DNA from: Pseudocercospora fijiensis CIRAD86
Taxonomy: Eukaryota > Ascomycota > Dothideomycetes > Mycosphaerellales > Mycosphaerellaceae
Length of the DNA: 64,000 nt
Reading direction: 5' to 3'
NCBI RefSeq assembly: GCF_000340215.1
Contig: NW_006921541.1
Coordinates: 3,882,074 to 3,946,073, forward strand
Shown: positions 28,739 to 38,291 of the stretch, in pieces
Layout of the letters: each line of letters begins with the position of its first letter
Numbering within the stretch: position 1 is the stretch's first letter
Position numbers and translations under genes: made by a program
The notes under the pieces: generated by a model
What the model was told of the DNA's origin: nothing
Databases searched by the model: none
The model's input: only the letters and a program-made list of their open reading frames with translations

Positions 28739-28746
28739 ATTACGAC
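28739..28746. repeat. hAT target site duplication, left copy
   Basis: ATTACGAC directly precedes the hAT end and is repeated exactly at 38,284-38,291. Eight bases is the length made by hAT transposases. Confidence 0.9.
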
Positions 28747-28775
28747 TAGACCCCGTAGTAGTTCGGTTTCCGAAC
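28747..28775 (+). repeat. Left termin inverted repeat of hAT
   Basis: TAGACCCCGTAGTAGTTCGG is perfectly complementary to the right end. Beyond it, TTTCCGAACTACC and GTTTGGTTT-type subterminal motifs occur, mirrored at the right end as AACCAAACC repeats. Confidence 0.95.
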
Positions 28776-28888
28776 TACCAAACGTATATAGTTTGGTTTC
28801 TTAGCGGCGAACTAGCTCCCTAGTTCCGGTTTGGTTTTTTCGAACTATATAGATTCCTAGTTTGAACTAGAGACTGTATTAGTTTTAC

Positions 28889-29180
28889 TACAAGGACACT
28901 CTTATTCGACTGCCGGCTACGATTGCCGGCTATAATAGTAACTCTGTTACATTTACTACGCTCTTTTGCCGTTGCTAGGGCGTAGTTGCCGTTGCTAGGG
29001 CGTAGTTGCCGTTACTAGGGCGTGGTTTTGCTATAAGGACACTCTTATTCGACTGCCGGCTACGATTGCCGGCTATAATAGTTACTAGGTTGTATTTACT
29101 ACGCTTTATTACCGTTGCTAGGGCGTAGTTGCCGTTGCTAGGGCGTAGTTGCCGTTACTAGGGCGTAGTTGCTATTGCCG
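28889..29180 (+). repeat. Subterminal tandem duplication with GCCGTTGCTAGGGCGTAGTT units
   Basis: About 142 bp (28,889-29,030) is repeated at 29,031-29,180. Each copy opens with AAGGACACTCTTATTCGACT and two GCCGGCTA motifs, then has three units of TTGCCGTTGCTAGGGCGTAG. Subterminal repeats of this kind bind the transposase in other hAT elements. Confidence 0.8.
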
Positions 29181-29662
29181 GGGCGTAGTTGCCGTAGTTG
29201 CGAAAGCTTACCTATATAACGTTACGTAGGCGGCAACAATTAGGGCTTCGCGATATTCTTATACTTTCAACTTCTTCCTCTATACCTACACCGATAATAA
29301 CTACTATACGCTACGCCCCCGCCCCTTTCCCTTACAATAGTAAGAGAGAAGCGCGCCGCGCGCTAAACAGAAGATAGAACTAAAGACTGCGAGTTTGTTT
29401 TGCCTAAGCGTCTAACTAAAAAGCGTAAGACTAAAGAGGAGTACTCTACGAAGAAGAATTCCGTACGAGACCGCGAGAGAAAGGACAAGATAGATAAGGA
29501 TAAAAGAGCTAAGGATAAGAGAAGAAAGGCGCGGAATAAGGCATTCTATCGATAGCTAGCGCCTATAGAAAAAAGTAAAGGTTAGAATAAGAAGACAACC
29601 TAAGAGAAGGCTAAGAGGAGGAAAGAATTACGGCTAGTTTTCGAGCGTAAAGTTCTAGCAGC

Positions 29663-29769
29663 GTAAGTCAATCTAGCTAGCGGCCGTAGCTAGCAGCTAT
29701 AGCCGGCAGCCGTAGCCGGCAGCTATAGCCGGTATATTTTTCTTTAATACGTTAACTAATAGTATTTAG
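29663..29769 (+). other. hAT transposase intron 1 with GCCGGC modules
   Basis: GTAAGT at the start, TTAACTAATAG near the end and TTTAG at the 3' end. Removal joins VLFERKVLAA-type coding to PIAATSIDTTDSNGDV in frame. It contains three TAGCCGGCAGC-like modules. Confidence 0.75.
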
Positions 29770-30250
29770 ACCTATAGCCGCTACCTCTATCGATACGACC
29801 GATAGTAACGGAGATGTTTAGATAGCCGAGAACAATAATACTAGAGTTTAGGATACCGCGACAGAGCTTAATACTGCGAATAAAGGAACTAAAAAAAGCG
29901 AGGAGATACTATACGTCGATCTAGTAACAGGTACAGTCTTAGGGCCTAACGCTATAGACGATAAGTGCTAGGAGTAGATCGAGCATAGTTAAAGAGACGA
30001 GATACTAGTAAAGGGCTAAGGTATAAGTCCTATCAATCTAGAAAATTATAGTTAAAGCTACTACGAAAAGCTAGCAAGGATTAGAATCGAGACTAGTCGT
30101 CTTTATATCCTCGATATAGAGTAGAAGTTTCTTTATTAGTATTAGAGCGAAGCCTTTACGTCTATAAAGGCAAAGTAGCTTGCGATTAATACGATCGGGG
30201 CTAGGTATCTAGGGACGGCAGAAGTGTTACTATAGGAGGAAGGGGTACAG

Positions 30251-30316
30251 GTAATTATTCTATACTCGGTATATATAGCCGGCGTTCGTAGCCGGCAGAT
30301 ACTAATAGTTAAATAG
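30251..30316 (+). other. hAT transposase intron 2 with GCCGGC modules
   Basis: GTAATT start, TACTAATAG branch, AAATAG end, 66 bp. Removal gives EEGVQ/KAFLEGRVL in frame. It holds TAGCCGGCG and TAGCCGGCAG. Confidence 0.7.
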
Positions 30317-31646
30317 AAAGCGTTTCTCGAAGGCAGAGTGCTACTGCTATATAAAATCTTTACTAAGGCAGAGAGGGCTTGTATCCGGAATCTAAGCTGC
30401 TAGTAGGATAGGTTAGCGTTAGAATTCTCTAAATCTCTATATAAGCCTCCGAAGGATTACCTATTTCAGCGATACGGCTTTATCTCGACTACTCCGTAGG
30501 CACCCGAAGAAGCTCGAGCCCTCTTTAAGGTCTTTACTAAGAAGCGGAAGGAGTTCGAGGATTAGGATTAGTTAATAGAGCTATTAGTTAGTCTTAGGTT
30601 TCGTAGTTAGACTCGGCCTAAGCATTTGCTTATCGAGTATCTTATACCGAAAGAGGATAGATTGAGACTAAAAACGAGCTTAGATTCGTTAGGTATAGTA
30701 GCTCGGTTCCGTTAGTAGGAGAGAGCCGCCGTATAGAAGGCAAAATTTAGGTAGTTAGGGTAGCTAGGAAAGAAATTCTAGTAGTTAGGCTAGCTAGGGT
30801 AGCTAGGAAAAAAAATCTAGTAGTTAGGTAGCTAGGAAACAAAAAAAAAAGGTAGCTAGCTATTTACTGCCTAGCTGTTCCTAACGATACGATACTATAA
30901 AAGAAAGGGTGTTTCTCTATAGCTACTAGTACACATCTACTACTCCTAAGTCCTTACCTTACCGTACGAAACCTTAAAACATACCGACCGACATTGTATA
31001 TATACTAGGCGCTATACTAGGAAGGGTAATAACGAGACGATAGTCGAAACAGTCTAGTATACGAGCGAGATTGCGATAACGTCGAGAGGAGGTCGTATAC
31101 TTACCTTCGAGCCTATCGAGTCCTAGACTACGATTAGGGCTAGATTCATCCTCTCCGAATCCTAGTAGTAGGAATTTATTATAGGGTACTACTACCTAGT
31201 CCTTACCTTTACGGAGTCTAAGCAGAAGGTTGTTCGAAGATATAAGAATATCGAGTATTAACCCGGAAATCTTCGAAAAGGCTAGCTAGGCGTATCTTTA
31301 GAAACCCGAGTATATAGAGCAGTTTAATTAATAGGTCTATAAGATATAGTTCCCTTTATACTTACGTTCGAAGGAGTGTAAACTCCGGAAGTACTCGATG
31401 CGATAGGGGAGTAAGGAGCGAACGGACACATTCTAGAAGTTCTTTATAGAGGGGGCATTGTACCGTTATACGACTTCTCGACTTAAAGGTTAACTAGTAA
31501 TTGTCTATAACTTCTACGGTTTAATCTTAAAATACCCGAAACTAGGGGATAGGAACTTATCGCCTACGAACTATCTCTATTCTAAACAGTATCGGGAATC
31601 TTAAGGAGAGAGGAGAGTTAATATAGATACAGCGTTCTAGAAAGAG

Positions 31647-31725
31647 GTATATCTTCTAAAATGCCGGCTATAGCTGCCGGCTATAGCTGCCGGCTATAGA
31701 TTCCGGCTACCTAAATTAACCGTAG
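31647..31725 (+). other. hAT transposase intron 3 with GCCGGC modules
   Basis: GTATAT start and CCGTAG end, with a weak branch (AAATTAACC). Removal joins DTAFQKE to RSSQLLQATLKEALGLK in frame, linking the middle region to the catalytic core. It contains three GCCGGCTATAG modules plus a variant. Confidence 0.65.
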
Positions 31726-32680
31726 AGATCTAGCTAATTATTATAGGCTACGCTTAAGGAAGCTCTAGGATTAAAGGCTACCGATTTCTCCCCCGAAGAC
31801 TTTAAGCAACTAGTAAACGAAATGCTAGCTACAAACGGTCTTCCGGAAGACTTCTACGAAAGGGAGTCTATATAGAAGATATACCTATATCTTACAAACT
31901 ACCCTCCCCTATTTCTCGGCGCGACAACCTAGCGTATTATATTCGAAAAGAACAAAGAGGCTACGTTAGACGACATTCGGGAGATCCTCCGTAATACTCG
32001 CCGAGTAGCTATTGCTATCGATAGCTAGTTAAGCCGGACTATAAGAGCCTCCTTCCTCTCGATTATGCTATACTTTATTAATTCGGATTAGAAACTCTAG
32101 GAACTTATAATCGGATTCCCTGAAATTCTAGGTTCCTATACTAGTAAGGATATAGCGAAGCTTGTCTATACGGTAATAGATAGGGTTAGCGTAACAACGA
32201 AACTAATCTCGATTACTACGGATAACGCTAGTAATAATCGAACATTGTATAAGGCATTGTATATACAATTTACTCGTATATATCTTTAAAATCACTAATT
32301 GTATCGATAGGGTCGAGTACGTAGAGGAGATTACAAGGTCTACAATCTAGCTTAATCTTCCGAATATTAAGCTCGCTACGATTCCGGATACGTACGACAA
32401 TACGTACGATAATAACGATAAAGAGGAGCCTATTAATAGCCCTAGCCCTATTAAATCGGAGCCGACGTCGTTACTAGTTGCATCCCTATAGAAGTTTCCC
32501 TACCTCGCTTATATAGTTCAAATCGCGATCCGAGCCCTCTTTAAGACGCTTAAAATTGCACTATTAAACGACGACTAATAGAAGATCCTAGATAAGGATA
32601 AAGTAAAGTCGAAAGTCGAGAAACTTATTATAGCAATAAGACGGGATAAGGTAGAGAGCCTCGCTCTCGTTTTGTATAAG

Positions 32681-32749
32681 GTATAACTTTTGTCCGTAGC
32701 CGGCACCTATAGCCGGCAACCTAGTATAGTTCTAACTCTTTTTCTCTAG
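32681..32749 (+). other. hAT transposase intron 4 with GCCGGC modules
   Basis: GTATAA start, TTCTAACTC branch, CTCTAG end, 69 bp. Removal joins SLALVLYK to LRRLAIYTNSS in frame. It holds GTAGCCGGCACC and TAGCCGGCAACC. Confidence 0.75.
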
Positions 32750-34093
32750 CTTCGTCGTCTAGCAATATATACGAACTCGAGCTTATAGAGATATAACCGA
32801 TTCGAGGCTATTTAAAAGAACCTAATCGAGCGCCCTAAAACCGATGCCTAGAATATCGTATAGAATAAGCGATAGCAAAAGCGGCCTCCTTAGCGCCTAC
32901 TCCGTTTTACCTAAGACGTTAAGATCCGGTTCGATTCGACTTTCTATATAGTTACGAGGGGATATACTTTACGTACCGCTCTCGAGATCTATTAGAGTTC
33001 CGAAGGTATTAAGTAGCTCGGCCTTACCGCCGCCGAATAGCGCTAAGCAGAGTATCTCGTCGATATTAGTAAGCATTACGCGAAGGTTACTACTACGATT
33101 AGAAGAACCCGAGGACCGACGATCTACCTTATCTTTACGTACTATAACTAGCTCTTTAACGAGCTCGAGGAAACCGTAGCTAAGCTAGCTAAGAAGAGCG
33201 TTCCCTAGAAAGTAGCTATAACGAAAGCTATAGACACCTCCTATACTAAGTTGCATAAATATTATAGTGCGACCTTTAACTCGTTCGAGGATATCTATAG
33301 CGTTGCGTACTTGCTTAACCCGGTAGAAAAGGATATATACTAGTAGAGGCCGGAATAGAAGGCGGACGAGGTATAGCCGAAGCATTACTAGACTATTCTA
33401 GAAAAGATGTTCTACGAGCGTCGGAAAGAAACTAGTCTAAATGCAGCTCCTATAAAGAAAAAGAAGGTTTAGAAGGCTCCGACATTATACCTGTTTCGTA
33501 GGTAGGAAGTAGAGGCAGAAGAGGAAGTAACTACTAAAGTAAATAAAGAAGAGTTCGATCTCTATCGGCGCGCGAGTAAGTATAAACCCGTAGGCTCGGA
33601 AAGAGGGCTAATAATCTCTAGATCTTACCGGTCTTCTAGACGAATTCGGAGACAATATTCTCGCTATATAGCAGCGGTTAGAGCCTAAGTTTCTAACGAT
33701 AGCGTCGGTCGCTCGGGACGTCCTCGCTATCCCGAGCGCAGGTATAGGCTATAAGAGGTCTTTTAGTATCGCTCGTTACTAGGGCCGCTTTAATCGAACA
33801 TACTCGCCTACTACCTTCGAATCTATTATAGTATTCCGATACTATCTCCTCTACTAGAATCGCTAAGGTAGGTTACTAAAGATTATACTAAAGGAGTTAA
33901 TCGAGGAATTAGAAAACCTTAAGATCGAAGAAACCTAGGAGCGCGAAGAGAATGCGAAATTTAGTCTAAGCGAAACCCTAATTAGCGATAACGAAGAGGA
34001 GGAGGGCGGAGGCAGAAGGCGATACCGGGTCGAGAAGCGGAAACGTATATAGGCTTAGAGTAGCTTTAAGGAGACGAAGCGTTTACGTATAAG

Positions 34094-34455
34094 GTAATAT
34101 AGCCGGCGTATATAGCCGGTATATATCCGAAATGTATTTCGAATTCCTAGGACCTAAACAGACTAGTTACTATAGCAACCGACCCCGCTTACCTACGGAC
34201 TATTTCTAATTCTCTGTTCGCTCTTCCTCTCCTTCTTCCCTTTCCCTATATTCTTAAAGATAAACATACTTTAAGGATTCGGCTCTTCGGGCCTTCCTAA
34301 GCCGGCTACCTCCCCTTCCTTAAGCTACTATCCTTTATTCGAATCTAACGATAACCTAATAAGGCGGTTTAATAGAAGACTATTTGTTCTAGAAGGTAAG
34401 AAGCATTAATGTCTCCTTACGATTATATGCTTATTAATTTCTAGGTCCTACCGAT
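34094..34455 (+). other. Spacer between hAT transposase and first H3-like gene
   Basis: No frame. It holds two more GCCGG modules at 34,103-34,126, a pyrimidine-rich tract at 34,215-34,250 (CTCTTCCTCTCCTTCTTCCC) that could belong to a promoter, and a CCGGCTACCTCCCC stretch at 34,302. Confidence 0.5.
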
Positions 34456-35073
34456 ATGCCCTCGTCGCCTAAACGCGTAGATAAATATCTTTAGAGGCTA
34501 AAGGGCAAGGGTAAAGTAAGCTAAGTATAGGGAGACCGTAGCGAGAACGAGATATCGGAAGAGTAAGGCTCTCCGTAGTATATACGAAGGAAGGGGGTTC
34601 CTCGGAAAACAGTACCGAAAAACAAGAAGGCTATAGGTAGATAGGAGAAGGCTAAAAAGAGTAGGCGGACAAAGACTATCGCGAAGAAAAGTTATCTTTC
34701 TATTAAAAGAAAGGGAACAAGGTAGGACTCGACGACAAAGAAGCGGCGCTTCAAACTAGGTACTATTGCCCTTCGCTAGATCCGGCTTTTCTAAAACAAA
34801 AGAGGGACCGAGCTTTTAATCCCTAAGACTCCCTTCTAGCGACTCGTCCGAGAAATTACATTAGATTTTCGGTCTAGTATACGATTTACGGCTAAGGCGA
34901 TTAGTGCTCTTTAGGAAGCTACGGAGGCATTTCTCGTAACCGAGCTTAAGCTTTTAAACCTCCTTACTATCTATACGAAGCGGGTTACTCTTTAAAATAA
35001 AGATATGCAGCTTCTAGCTAAAATTCGGCGTCGGTTTATAGCGGATTAGTTAGAAATTGTATTTAGTCGTTAG
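34456..35073 (+). pseudogene. Histone H3-fold protein with long basic N-terminal tail (hAT cargo 1)
   Basis: From the ATG at 34,456 a single frame of 205 codons runs with TAG/TAA as the only stops. Codons 1-105 form a Lys/Arg-rich tail. The rest follows histone H3: GTIALR then IRLF, TELLIPKTPF then RLVREITLDF, SSIRFTAKAISAL then EATEAFLV, and IYTKRVTL then NKDMQLLAKIRRR. That covers the N-helix and the three helices of the fold. The stops at 34,837, 34,912 and 34,993 sit exactly where H3 has Gln (FQRLV, LQEA, the Gln of the RVTIQ-type strand), so they are RIP products of CAG/CAA. Between N-helix and helix 1 there are two extra residues. The tail lacks the ARTKQTARKS start, so it is a variant and not a replication H3. 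It might instead be a CENP-A-type variant; loop 1 length equals that of canonical H3. Confidence 0.85.
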
Positions 35074-35138
35074 ATTAACCTAGGAGGAGGCCTATTTTCG
35101 CATCGTTTTACCGGCTATAGGTACCGGCTATATTTCTG

Positions 35139-35529
35139 ATTTTATCTCCGCGCCGTCCCTAAATCTAAGGTACGAAGTAGAAACCTAGCGCTCTATATTT
35201 ACCCGGCTATTATAGAGACGAGCTATATTTAGATTAGTTTCTTCGTATATCGCGACCTAGCGGGTAGTAAGCGAAAGGGCGATAGAACGTTTATAATACG
35301 TCTCTATTTAGACCTAAAATACAAAGGTCCTAAGGAGCCCTAGCATCCTAACTATAAGGAGATTCTTTAGTATTAGCACTTTAATCCTCTATACTACGAG
35401 GCAGATAGCAAGCCTGCGAGAGAGAAACTTTAACGAGAAATTCTCTATAATGCGTAGCGCTATTATATAGCTATAGATGCGTACTAAGTCCGGTAACTCG
35501 AAGAAGAATTAAGATAGCGTATTAGCGAC
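35139..35529 (+). pseudogene. Unknown ORF between the two H3-like genes of the hAT
   Basis: One frame reads VPKSKVRSRNLALYIYPAII, then ISFFVYRDLAGSKRKGDRTF, IIRLYLDLKYKGPKEP, and a charged C-terminal part EADSKPAREKL and LEEELR. Stops are TAG/TAA only and spaced like those of the H3 gene. I do not recognise it. It could be a separate gene or a downstream exon of the first H3-like gene; two CCGGCTAT modules at 35,111 lie between them as in the introns of this element. Confidence 0.45.
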
Positions 35530-36328
35530 CGAGGAGGAGATCGATAGTATACTAGTAGAGTCGAGGTCTTATAAGCGAAGTACAAGATAATATAGGCTCT
35601 TAGTCGTATAGAGTAACGTACTATATAAATAACTAGGCGTGCTACTCTTATTTACTTACGACCTATATCCTAGGATACTCTTCTCGTACTTTTTATACTC
35701 TTTTCTAATACCTTACCTGTAAGCGCTCCGCGATAACCGAGTGAATATAAGCTGTAGGGTTTCCGCTCGGTACCTTAGCCTCCGAGATAGGGCGGAGTTG
35801 AATTTAGAGCGATAGTCGGCACCCGTAGCCGGCATATAGAGACGGTAGTAGGCCTTTTTCTACTAAATAACTAGCTTGTTTAGTATAGCCTACCTGATAT
35901 TTCTTATATTTACTAGCAATAGGCCTAGGTTACTTATAAGATTACTATAGCTAGTAAAGGTATTACTAAAGAATATCTATACTATAGTAGGATACTATTA
36001 TTACGCCGGCTATTTATTAAAAGGAGGCTTTCGCCTATTACTATGCCGGCTATATATACCGGCTATATTTCAAAGTCTACCGTACCTGCCTTTTTTAGCC
36101 GTACCTACCTTCTTTCCTTGCTCTAACGTTACTATAATATAGGCTTGCGCGAAGCTTACTCTATTGCCTAGCGATACCGCGACACTACCTCTCTCGCTAT
36201 ATTCAACCTTCGTATCGATACCTATACCTCTACGCTCTATATCTACTACCTCCGTAATACCCTCGCTCCGCGCGCGCCTTCGTATACCTTCGCAACGCAC
36301 TTTTTTCCTTAATTCGACGACTTTTACA
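35530..36328 (+). other. Spacer and probable promoter upstream of the second H3-like gene
   Basis: No confident gene. GCCGGC modules lie at 35,818-35,845, 36,004 and 36,043-36,066. From about 36,070 to 36,320 the strand is strongly C/T-rich with CGCTCCGCGCGCGCC, ending in TTTTTTCC and ACTTTTACAATAGCG just before the inferred start; this resembles a fungal promoter and leader. Short open frames on both strands here are shadows. Confidence 0.5.
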
Positions 36329-36989
36329 ATAGCGAATCTACTTAACTAAGTTACGACGCCTCGTAAGAAGGGACCTGCTACTTCTACGGGTCGTAATAAG
36401 ATCGGAAATAAAGGAACGAGTATAGTACATTAACGCAAGATAGCTACTACTGCTGCCGCTAGCTCCGGTACTAGAAAGGGCGTCGCGAGCAAGGCTCCGC
36501 GTAAGACAACGGCGGGCAAGGCTCTACGTAAGACGACAACTAGCGCTTCTACTACTAGTAGCAATCGTGCGAAGCGTCGATAGCGCCTAGGAAGTAAGTC
36601 CTATTTATAGCCGGCAGCGTAGCCGGCAGCGTAGCCGGCATTCTTACTGTCTTTTTACTAATCCTTCTTTAGCCGTAGCCCTCCGTAAGATTCGGTAGTA
36701 TTAGAAGAGTTCTAAGCTCCTAATCCGTAAAACTCCTTTCTAACGACTTGTTCGCGAAATTGCCTAGGATTATAGAATAGACCTTCGCTTCTAAGCCTCC
36801 GCGATAGGCGCCCTTTAAGAGGCTATAGAAGCCTACCTAGTTCGTATCTTCGAATATATATTTCTCTTCTACCTCTTTTCGGACTATACTAATACTATTT
36901 TAGCGGTTAACCTTATAGCTATCTACGCGGAGCGTATAACGATTATAGATAAGGATTTTAAAGCACTCGATTAGATCCTAAAAGGCTAG
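36329..36989 (+). pseudogene. Histone H3-like protein with one confirmed intron (hAT cargo 2)
   Basis: Inferred start at 36,329 (ATA from ATG in ACAATAGCG). The tail reads VTTPRKKGPATSTGRNKIG, then SGTRKGVASKAPRKTTAGKA and LRKTTTSAST, echoing the APRK and GGKAPRK motifs of the H3 tail. Removing the intron 36,594-36,672 joins GGA-A to CC, creating RLGTVALRKIR, the exact H3 GTVALREIR context. Exon 2 gives SSKLLIRKTPF, RLVREIA, DYRIDLRF, ASAIGAL and EAIEAYLVRIFE; the stops between these blocks fall on Gln of YQKS, FQRLV, IAQDF, RFQSS and LQEA. The C-terminal part NLIAIYAERITIIDKDFKAL matches NLCAIHAKRVTI...KDIQLA. Between FE and NL about 18 extra codons (36,852-36,903, ACTAATAC and TTTTAG at the end) are probably a second intron. 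The sequence is much closer to canonical H3 than cargo 1. Confidence 0.88.
36594..36672 (+). other. Intron of second H3-like gene with GCCGGC modules
   Basis: GTAAGT start, TTACTAATCC branch and CTTTAG end, 79 bp. Three TAGCCGGCAGCG modules fill the middle. Frame restoration inside the conserved PGTVALREIR block makes this the most secure intron of the window. Confidence 0.9.
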
Positions 36990-37212
36990 AATGTCTACAT
37001 TCGAGATAGTACTAGATAGGATAGATATACTAGTAGGAAGGATGTTCGTAGTGTCGTCTACAAGCTTTTCTATATACGAAATAAGCCGCTATTATACGGC
37101 GCTACATACCGCGCTCTAAATACTCTCTAAGCATATGTATATAGTACAGTATGCTTTATTAGCCGTACGGAATAGAAGTCTCCTAAAATCCCGTTAGTAC
37201 TAAGGAGTAAAA

Positions 37213-37270
37213 AGGCCGGCTACGCTGCCGGCTACGCTGCCGGCTACGCTGCTAGCTACGCTGCTAGGTT
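37213..37270. repeat. GCCGGCTACGCT tandem array in hAT
   Basis: Four to five units of GCCGGCTACGCT, the last ones changed to GCTAGCTACGCT. Orientation is opposite to the intron copies upstream. A further pair lies at 38,080-38,105 near the right end. Confidence 0.8.
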
Positions 37271-37399
37271 TTTTAAAGAACTAAAAGAAGATAGACATTC
37301 CGGTTGATTTGTATTAGTTTAGATTTTTATAAAAAGAAAACAGGGAAAAATAAGGAAGGTTGAAGAGCCTAATAGTTATAGTTATAGGCACTATCCCTG
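37271..37399. other. Spacer within the less mutated right end of the hAT
   Basis: A-rich sequence with a fold-back: AAACAGGGA near 37,336 pairs with TCCCTGTTTTC at 37,393. It could be a terminator for the minus-strand ORF. CA and TG are common from here to 38,280. Confidence 0.4.
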
Positions 37400-37870
37400 T
37401 TTTCTAGAGCATATTATACACCTGCCTTCGCAACTCTACCTAATACTCCCTCTAAATATCCTTATACTCTACCTACTAGAAATTCAACTAGGTACCTAGA
37501 CCTATAGCTGCCTCTATATCTTTTACTATCTTCTATAGGTTGAAGGCCTCTTCTATAGTAGCCTCTACCTCCTTATACAACACGAAGTTACTACCTGCCC
37601 TACCCTTTATATCTCCTAAATAACTAAGAGTTCTAAGGAACGAACTAGCATTCGGCCTTAGTATAGCGAGTAACTAGTAGAACGTTCTACAGAGCTGCCT
37701 TATAGCTCTTTTATATACTATGCCGATACCGAGGGAGGAGCTATCCTAGTACTTAATGTTATCGAATAGTTCGGTAGGAAAGTATATAAACTTCTTAAGG
37801 AGGAGGACTTCTAGGGAAATCGATGAGTTCTACCTAGATCTAGATAAAGATATTCTGCTAAGCAGTTAGG
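37400..37870 (-). pseudogene. Unknown minus-strand ORF in right end of hAT
   Basis: Minus-strand frame: LEVLLLKKFIYFPTELFDNI, then SSLGIGIVYKRAIRQLCRTF, LLAILRPNASSFLRTLSYLG and YKEVEATIEEAFNL. It has seven or so stops in about 155 codons, again TAG. The sequence looks coding (helical, balanced composition) but I cannot assign a family. It faces away from the histone genes, and its 5' end may involve the GCCGGC pair at 38,080. It could be captured host sequence, because it escaped most RIP and is therefore likely low-copy. Confidence 0.45.
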
Positions 37871-38180
37871 GAATTGAACCGTAAACGAAAGGATGAAATT
37901 TATACCTAAGGAGTGCAGTTTCCGAACTAAACTATAATGCCTTGTGTGTATATGTGTACTTTTGATTAGTTAGTGCCCTTAGCTAATTGTCTATAGATTT
38001 AAGGTTATATAAGTACCTTTATACAACTACGTAGCCTAAGTAGGATTCGAAAATTCTATAAGTACTAAGGACTAAAAATGCCGGCCACGCTGCCGGCTAC
38101 ACTGCTAAGTCTTACAAAGGGCTTGCTTAAAGCTACGTATACATTCGTACACTTCTTAAAAACCGATAAATTATATGGTT
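37871..38180 (-). other. Right subterminal region of the hAT without a confident gene
   Basis: It contains the inverted GCCGGC pair at 38,080-38,105 and TG/CA-rich sequence (TTGTGTGTATATGTGTAC at 37,943). I see no long frame. Confidence 0.4.
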
Positions 38181-38189
38181 CGAACCAGC

Positions 38190-38283
38190 TACTTATATAG
38201 TTGCTTAGCAAACCAACCCAAACCAAACTAGAGTTTCGGCTTAGCAAACCAAACCAAACCAACCCGAACTACTACGGGGTCTA
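38190..38283 (-). repeat. Right terminal inverted repeat and AACCAAACC subterminal repeats of hAT
   Basis: CCGAACTACTACGGGGTCTA closes the element. Before it are several AAACCAACC/AAACCAAAC units, with CA dinucleotides intact. The left end has the complementary GTTTGGTTT units. Confidence 0.92.
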
Positions 38284-38291
38284 ATTACGAC
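38284..38291. repeat. hAT target site duplication, right copy
   Basis: ATTACGAC, identical to 28,739-28,746. Confidence 0.9.

Follow-up and report, generated by a model that had tools for sequence, protein, structure and literature searches.

The window, the whole stretch of 64,000 nucleotides analysed here, contains a full-length hAT transposon of 9.5 kb that is mutated by RIP (the repeat-mutation defence of fungi) and carries two different histone H3 genes, H3-A and H3-B; it is considered likely that the second of these is not an intron-less retrocopy but a once selected working gene of the element. H3-carrying hAT elements are already known from publications of 2013 and 2019, and the element in the window is mainly a confirmation of them; the statement in the preliminary description that no DNA transposon family had been described with its own H3 variants is contradicted by the accessible parts of Manning et al. 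2013 (PMC3538342) and Dhillon et al. 2019 (PMC6710886). The additions made here are two further subfamilies in which the H3 reading frames are kept, and predicted introns in H3-B, by which a published "insertion" is most likely to be reread as an intron.

Structure of the Element

The element spans 9,537 bp (28,747–38,283) and is present in the window as one copy with RIP stop codons throughout. The hallmarks of the hAT superfamily, namely an 8-bp target site duplication and short terminal inverted repeats, are present (Table 1), and the signature of RIP extends over the whole window, with TpA/ApT ratios of 1.67–2.47 and a CpA+TpG index of 0.01–0.49 per 2 kb. The ends, the duplication, and the Pfam Histone matches bear out the preliminary description of a single hAT element enclosing two differing H3-fold genes between inverted repeats and an exact 8-bp duplication; its placement of both genes on the transposase strand likewise holds, as H3-A, H3-B, and the transposase region (31.7–34.1 kb) all lie on the forward strand.

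Table 1. Features of the H3-carrying hAT element, in positions of the window
Feature	Position	Strand	Remarks
Left target site duplication, 8 bp, ATTACGAC	28739..28746	.	Exact match to 38284–38291
Left terminal inverted repeat	28747..28769	+	23-nt arm, 96% complementary to right arm
Upstream coding-like region, RIP-interrupted	29963..31640	+	Read by eye
hAT transposase region, RIP-interrupted, in pieces	31741..34096	+	Weak Pfam matches and 98–100% identical copies
H3-A, long-tailed divergent histone H3 gene, RIP stops	34456..35046	+	Pfam Histone PF00125
H3-B predicted exon 1, H3-like tail	36329..36593	+	Start inferred; ATA in window copy
H3-B predicted intron 1	36594..36672	+	GTAAGT ... TACTAAT ... 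TTTAG; 12-bp GCCGGC modules, number variable
H3-B predicted exon 2, histone fold	36673..36855	+	Pfam Histone E = 7.8e-21
H3-B predicted intron 2, 48 nt	36856..36903	+	GT donor in part of copies, TACTAAT, TTTTAG, H3 spacing
H3-B predicted exon 3	36904..~37010	+	End approximate
Right terminal inverted repeat	38261..38283	-	23 nt, 96% complementary to left arm
Right target site duplication, 8 bp, ATTACGAC	38284..38291	.	Exact match to left one

In Pfam, the transposase region scores against DUF659 at E = 0.088 and against Dimer_Tnp_hAT at E = 0.003, both below the curated cut-off and at a level that unrelated families reach as well (SelB-wing_3, E = 0.0035; AAA_9, E = 0.032); DUF659 is also the domain given for the transposase of the P. 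fijiensis H3-hAT in the accessible text of Dhillon et al. (PMC6710886). A possible intron lies near 32681–32749 in this region. In the upstream coding-like region, no Pfam family was matched by the pieces searched, and a possible intron with GCCGGC modules is found near 30250–30316.

Such modules had been described as surrounding both H3 genes and filling the intron of the second. This stands insofar as 26 of the 33 modules in the window lie inside the element and three of them in the first intron of H3-B; the gene has two predicted introns, however, and not one. Within the element the modules form 13 clusters (28912–38097), as pairs or triplets mostly 12–13 bp apart, and several sit in introns, predicted or possible, of H3-B, the transposase, and the upstream gene. 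Genome-wide, there are 218 exact matches to the module dimer TAGCCGGCAGCGTAGCCGGCAGCG, compared with 0 to the reversed control. The modules could be transposase binding sites or simple minisatellites.

Copies and Subfamilies

In the 73.9 Mb of genome searched, the two-H3 region is covered end to end at 94–100% identity in 37 of the 40 places scored, window included (507 candidates), and a transposase probe is matched at 98–100% identity in all 40 places scored (421 candidates). Among 150 histone matches scored, H3-A stands at the expected distance from the transposase in at least 35 of 40 copies. Both element ends were found in all ten further copies tested, with up to three errors allowed; these ten, whose left ends were read, come from a set of 19 loci that have the two-H3 region besides the window. 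The right end is present at 20 of 20 loci. The 8-bp target duplication is exact in nine of the ten further copies (imperfect at L007) and different at every site. Because ends and site-specific duplications surround the H3-bearing copies, the two H3 genes belong to the mobile unit, which exists as many copies with transposase and H3 at sites with duplications of their own; those copies that were read bear stops of the RIP type. Shared transposition history of H3 genes and transposase, a check proposed in the preliminary description, is thus confirmed, and of the two outcomes named there as speaking against the reading, neither was found: other copies hold the H3 genes, and both genes match a histone profile.

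A search for the histone family, with 150 of 772 candidates scored, gave 148 matches with internal stops and two that are stop-free, namely the host H3 on contig C6 and the CenH3 on contig C5, the latter judged by its sequence.

A second subfamily consists of three copies (on C12, C17, and C20), in which transposase, H3-A, and H3-B follow in the same order as in the window; the one copy with both ends read has an exact target duplication. Its H3-A is 72% identical to that of the window, and a third H3-A type, present in two copies (C6 and C13), is 83% identical to the window gene in the one copy aligned. The indels in H3-A between subfamilies measure 3, 6, and 21 nt, and the H3-A frame is kept in 28 of 28 loci of one set and in three of four of another, the tail being frame-shifted at L070.

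Exons 2 and 3 of H3-B (36673–36977) are 73–80% identical to subfamily 2, whereas the 48-nt intron between them is 94–96% identical. This greater divergence of the exons looks like the result of segments having been exchanged between element lineages, in which case the sites would not be independent. Inside the 3' part of locus L062 (C17), at about 502–884 of the reversed stretch, there is a piece of about 380 bp with both ends of this hAT family; it probably represents a short, non-autonomous derivative that sits within its parent element.

Two Different H3 Genes

For the profile searches, translation of both genes was continued through TAG and TAA codons. The H3-A frame from 34456 matches Pfam Histone PF00125 at E = 1.3e-23 (residues 67–191), although the end of the reading frame is uncertain because of the RIP stops; H3-B, searched as the region 36351–37020, matches at E = 7.8e-21. 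Compared with solved structures, H3-A finds 176 distinct sequences at E ≤ 1e-5, the best being H3.3C (1.8e-27), and the best 60 of these 176 are all named as H3 types. The predicted structure of H3-A contains helices at 101–117, 124–136, 142–175, and 181–196, in the αN-α1-α2-α3 order of a core histone, at a mean pLDDT of only 61 (low confidence). No intron was seen in the H3-A fold.

H3-A and H3-B are two different proteins with long, diverged tails. The motif RKGV occurs in the tails of both, and in H3-B it aligns with RKST of canonical H3 at the K9 position. Among the matches listed in profile searches and in searches with the H3-B protein, most are long proteins of H3 type from animals or plants, and none is named as close kin.

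Directly after H3-A, the block 35081–35188 carries GCCGGC-like modules and is conserved in subfamily 2 at 81–85%; it is perhaps a terminal exon or the 3' end of H3-A. The reading frame at 35155–35700 was not counted as a gene, since a Pfam search with it gave nothing and the stretch 35189–35950 has no same-strand counterpart at any of the three loci of subfamily 2.

The two introns of H3-B are predictions based on splice signals together with the reading frame and the spacing of the residues. The first would interrupt GTVALRKIR between G and T, a position one codon after the second intron of the host H3 (KPG, TVALREIR), and the number of its 12-bp GCCGGC modules differs among element copies. 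The second, at its predicted donor, reads GT in 11 of 20 subfamily-1 copies and in none of the three copies of subfamily 2; elsewhere it reads AT, as expected from RIP of TpG. TACTAAT is present in most copies, followed by TTTTAG at the end, and a length of 48 nt was measured in the window, in one further copy of subfamily 1, and in two copies of subfamily 2. Removal of these 48 nt restores the exact spacing of H3, with FESVNL in the element compared with FEDTNL in the host. The insertion of 16 residues reported in the second H3 by Dhillon et al. 2019 is very likely the predicted intron at 36856–36903.

Tests of Selection

Ratios of pN/pS for H3-B were obtained between subfamilies 1 and 2 on a gap-free alignment with RIP-type changes masked. 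For the fold, the ratio is 0.15 (p = 1.8e-4, 44 codons) when agreement of all three subfamily-2 copies is required and 0.25 (p = 5e-5, 66 codons) for the subfamily-2 majority; it amounts to 0.24–0.28 against each of the three copies singly and to 0.22 (p = 7e-4) once the patch of greatest divergence is left out. Read in the wrong frames, the same fold gives 1.06 and 0.93, and nine of its 15 transversions fall at third positions. The tail encoded by exon 1 lacks such constraint (1.13, and 0.85 in another comparison), which together suggests that the fold of H3-B, and not its tail, was constrained.

The corresponding tests of the other genes are weaker. Of the three subfamily pairs, two yield non-significant ratios for H3-A (0.70 and 0.71) and the third yields 0.35 (uncorrected p = 0.007), and the third-position excess of its transversions is not significant (12 of 29, p = 0.23). 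Similarly, the transposase has a ratio of 0.57 (p = 0.06), with a third-position excess short of significance (19 of 41 transversions, p = 0.057). A noncoding control, read as codons in three frames, gave 0.67, no silent change at all, and 0.35, so that noise can produce low ratios at counts of this size. H3-B probably functioned as a gene while it was carried by the element; the evidence that H3-A did so is weaker.

Origin and Possible Function

According to the accessible text of Dhillon et al. (PMC6710886), exon-exon junctions without introns indicate that the H3 sequences stem from a retrocopy of the housekeeping H3. In this published explanation, passive transduplication, a transcript-derived copy that was useless to the element was multiplied with it and then destroyed by RIP, and as an account of the present element it retains some credence, short of an even chance. 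Besides the reported junctions, the lack of a visible intron in the H3-A fold and the weak or null selection tests on H3-A, on the tail of H3-B, and on the transposase agree with it. An intron-less retrocopy does not fit H3-B, however, given its two predicted introns, one of them a single codon away from the second intron of the host H3; moreover, the two element proteins differ from each other and have long diverged tails, and the differences between subfamilies in the H3-B fold are mainly silent. From its predicted gene structure and pattern of substitution, we infer that H3-B was neither an intron-less retrocopy nor idle, but worked as a gene, subject to purifying selection during its time on the element. 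A broader and more tentative proposal, doubtful in its full extent, is that this hAT lineage carried two H3 variants as working genes of its own, one of them intron-bearing and selected, to remodel or de-silence chromatin to its own advantage, and that hATs with H3 genes have originated repeatedly in Dothideomycetes because such a gene is of benefit to a transposon. As a mechanism, an H3 variant made by the element would enter nucleosomes with host H4 and would weaken H3-based silencing, thereby favouring the element's own expression or transposition; such loosening of the silencing of the element is put forward as the most likely function, as a hypothesis.

A role at centromeres, where the element H3s would replace or compete with CenH3, is very improbable, and the hijacking of centromeric chromatin raised in the preliminary description finds no support. 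The long non-canonical tail of H3-A and its weak match, below the cut-off, to the CENP-T histone fold (Pfam E = 0.004) would accord with it. Identity as centromeric H3 is nevertheless disfavoured by loop 1, which in H3-A and H3-B is short as in canonical H3 and lacks the greater length seen in the host CenH3; by the solved structures, none of the best 60 of 176 matches to H3-A being named CENP-A; and by the H3-fold tree, in which the host CenH3 pairs with another fungal protein (99/97), away from both element H3s. That the H3 genes form a separate element nested in the hAT at the window site alone has next to no probability; the whole window is indeed RIPped and repeat-like, but the same gene order recurs in copies elsewhere with their own target duplications, subfamily 2 included, which rules out chance or a single-site nested insertion. 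Should H3-B prove to be a truly selected, spliced transposon gene, the story would change from an accidental housekeeping copy to a mobile element making its own nucleosome part.

Histone-encoding DNA viruses are viral and not transposons, unlike the hAT element of the window. As far as the accessible part of a review on their histones goes (PMC9145170), they are likewise mobile genomes that encode histones of their own.

Relation to Described Elements

Very probably, the element of the window is a member of the family of H3-bearing hAT transposons reported by Dhillon et al. 2019 (Mob DNA 10:37, PMC6710886) from the banana pathogen Pseudocercospora fijiensis and relatives, and the genome of that report is very likely the one analysed here. 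Cercospora zeae-maydis, P. eumusae, P. musae, and Sphaerulina also have H3-hATs. In the accessible text, that family is about 9.5 kb long, with a 20-bp terminal inverted repeat and an 8-bp target site duplication, and 784 H3-like sequences are counted across 471 elements, each of which holds one or two; its copies are RIPped, its second H3 bears the insertion discussed above, and the original H3 lies on scaffold 6. The window element agrees with this in its length of 9,537 bp, its short inverted repeats (23-nt arms), its 8-bp duplication, and its two H3s, the second longer by 48 nt (16 residues). The hundreds of RIPped copies there have a counterpart in the present genome, where at least 148 histone matches are RIPped, and the host H3 lies on contig C6, if the contig number is taken as the scaffold number. 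In contrast to the derivation of both H3s from an intron-less retrocopy in that account, two different H3 genes are found here, the second with predicted introns, and two further subfamilies are added to what is described in the accessible text. The Dhillon result is cited in a 2026 paper (PMC13041039), as seen in its accessible part; no paper was found on the wording "transposon-encoded histone" in the open literature, a coverage outside which many subscription journals fall.

The hAT of Pyrenophora tritici-repentis reported by Manning et al. 2013 (G3 3:41, PMC3538342) carries an H3-like gene, H3L, for which ESTs are given. In the parts of that paper available, it resembles the window element in having a transposase, an extra open reading frame, and an H3-like gene between terminal inverted repeats, with tens of copies; it differs in its 5.6-kb and 2.3-kb forms, its single H3, little RIP, and a naturally intact H3L. 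According to the accessible text of Dhillon et al. (PMC6710886), the hAT consensus sequences of the Pyrenophora and P. fijiensis elements are without similarity.

The H3-fold tree was built from 74 rows and 92 columns; its bootstrap had not settled, and two of three constrained trees outscored the free tree. H3-A and H3-B each form one group (100/99). Constraints that unite H3-A with H3-B (p = 0.22), H3-B with the host H3 (p = 0.82), or H3-A with the protein P0003 (p = 0.76) are not rejected, and the fold tree, compatible both with a single origin of H3-A and H3-B and with derivation of H3-B from the host H3, does not settle between them. H3-A groups weakly, on long branches, with P0003 and P0040 (89/51), and P0003 resembles H3-A in a shared insertion of two residues and in its KxRRRF ending.

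The proteins P0003, P0016, and P0040 have other sources, in the case of P0040 Cudoniella acicularis; they are H3-like, long-tailed, and intact, and they may be element H3s of other genomes. In P0016, an acidic stretch is followed by RKGVP, as in H3-A.
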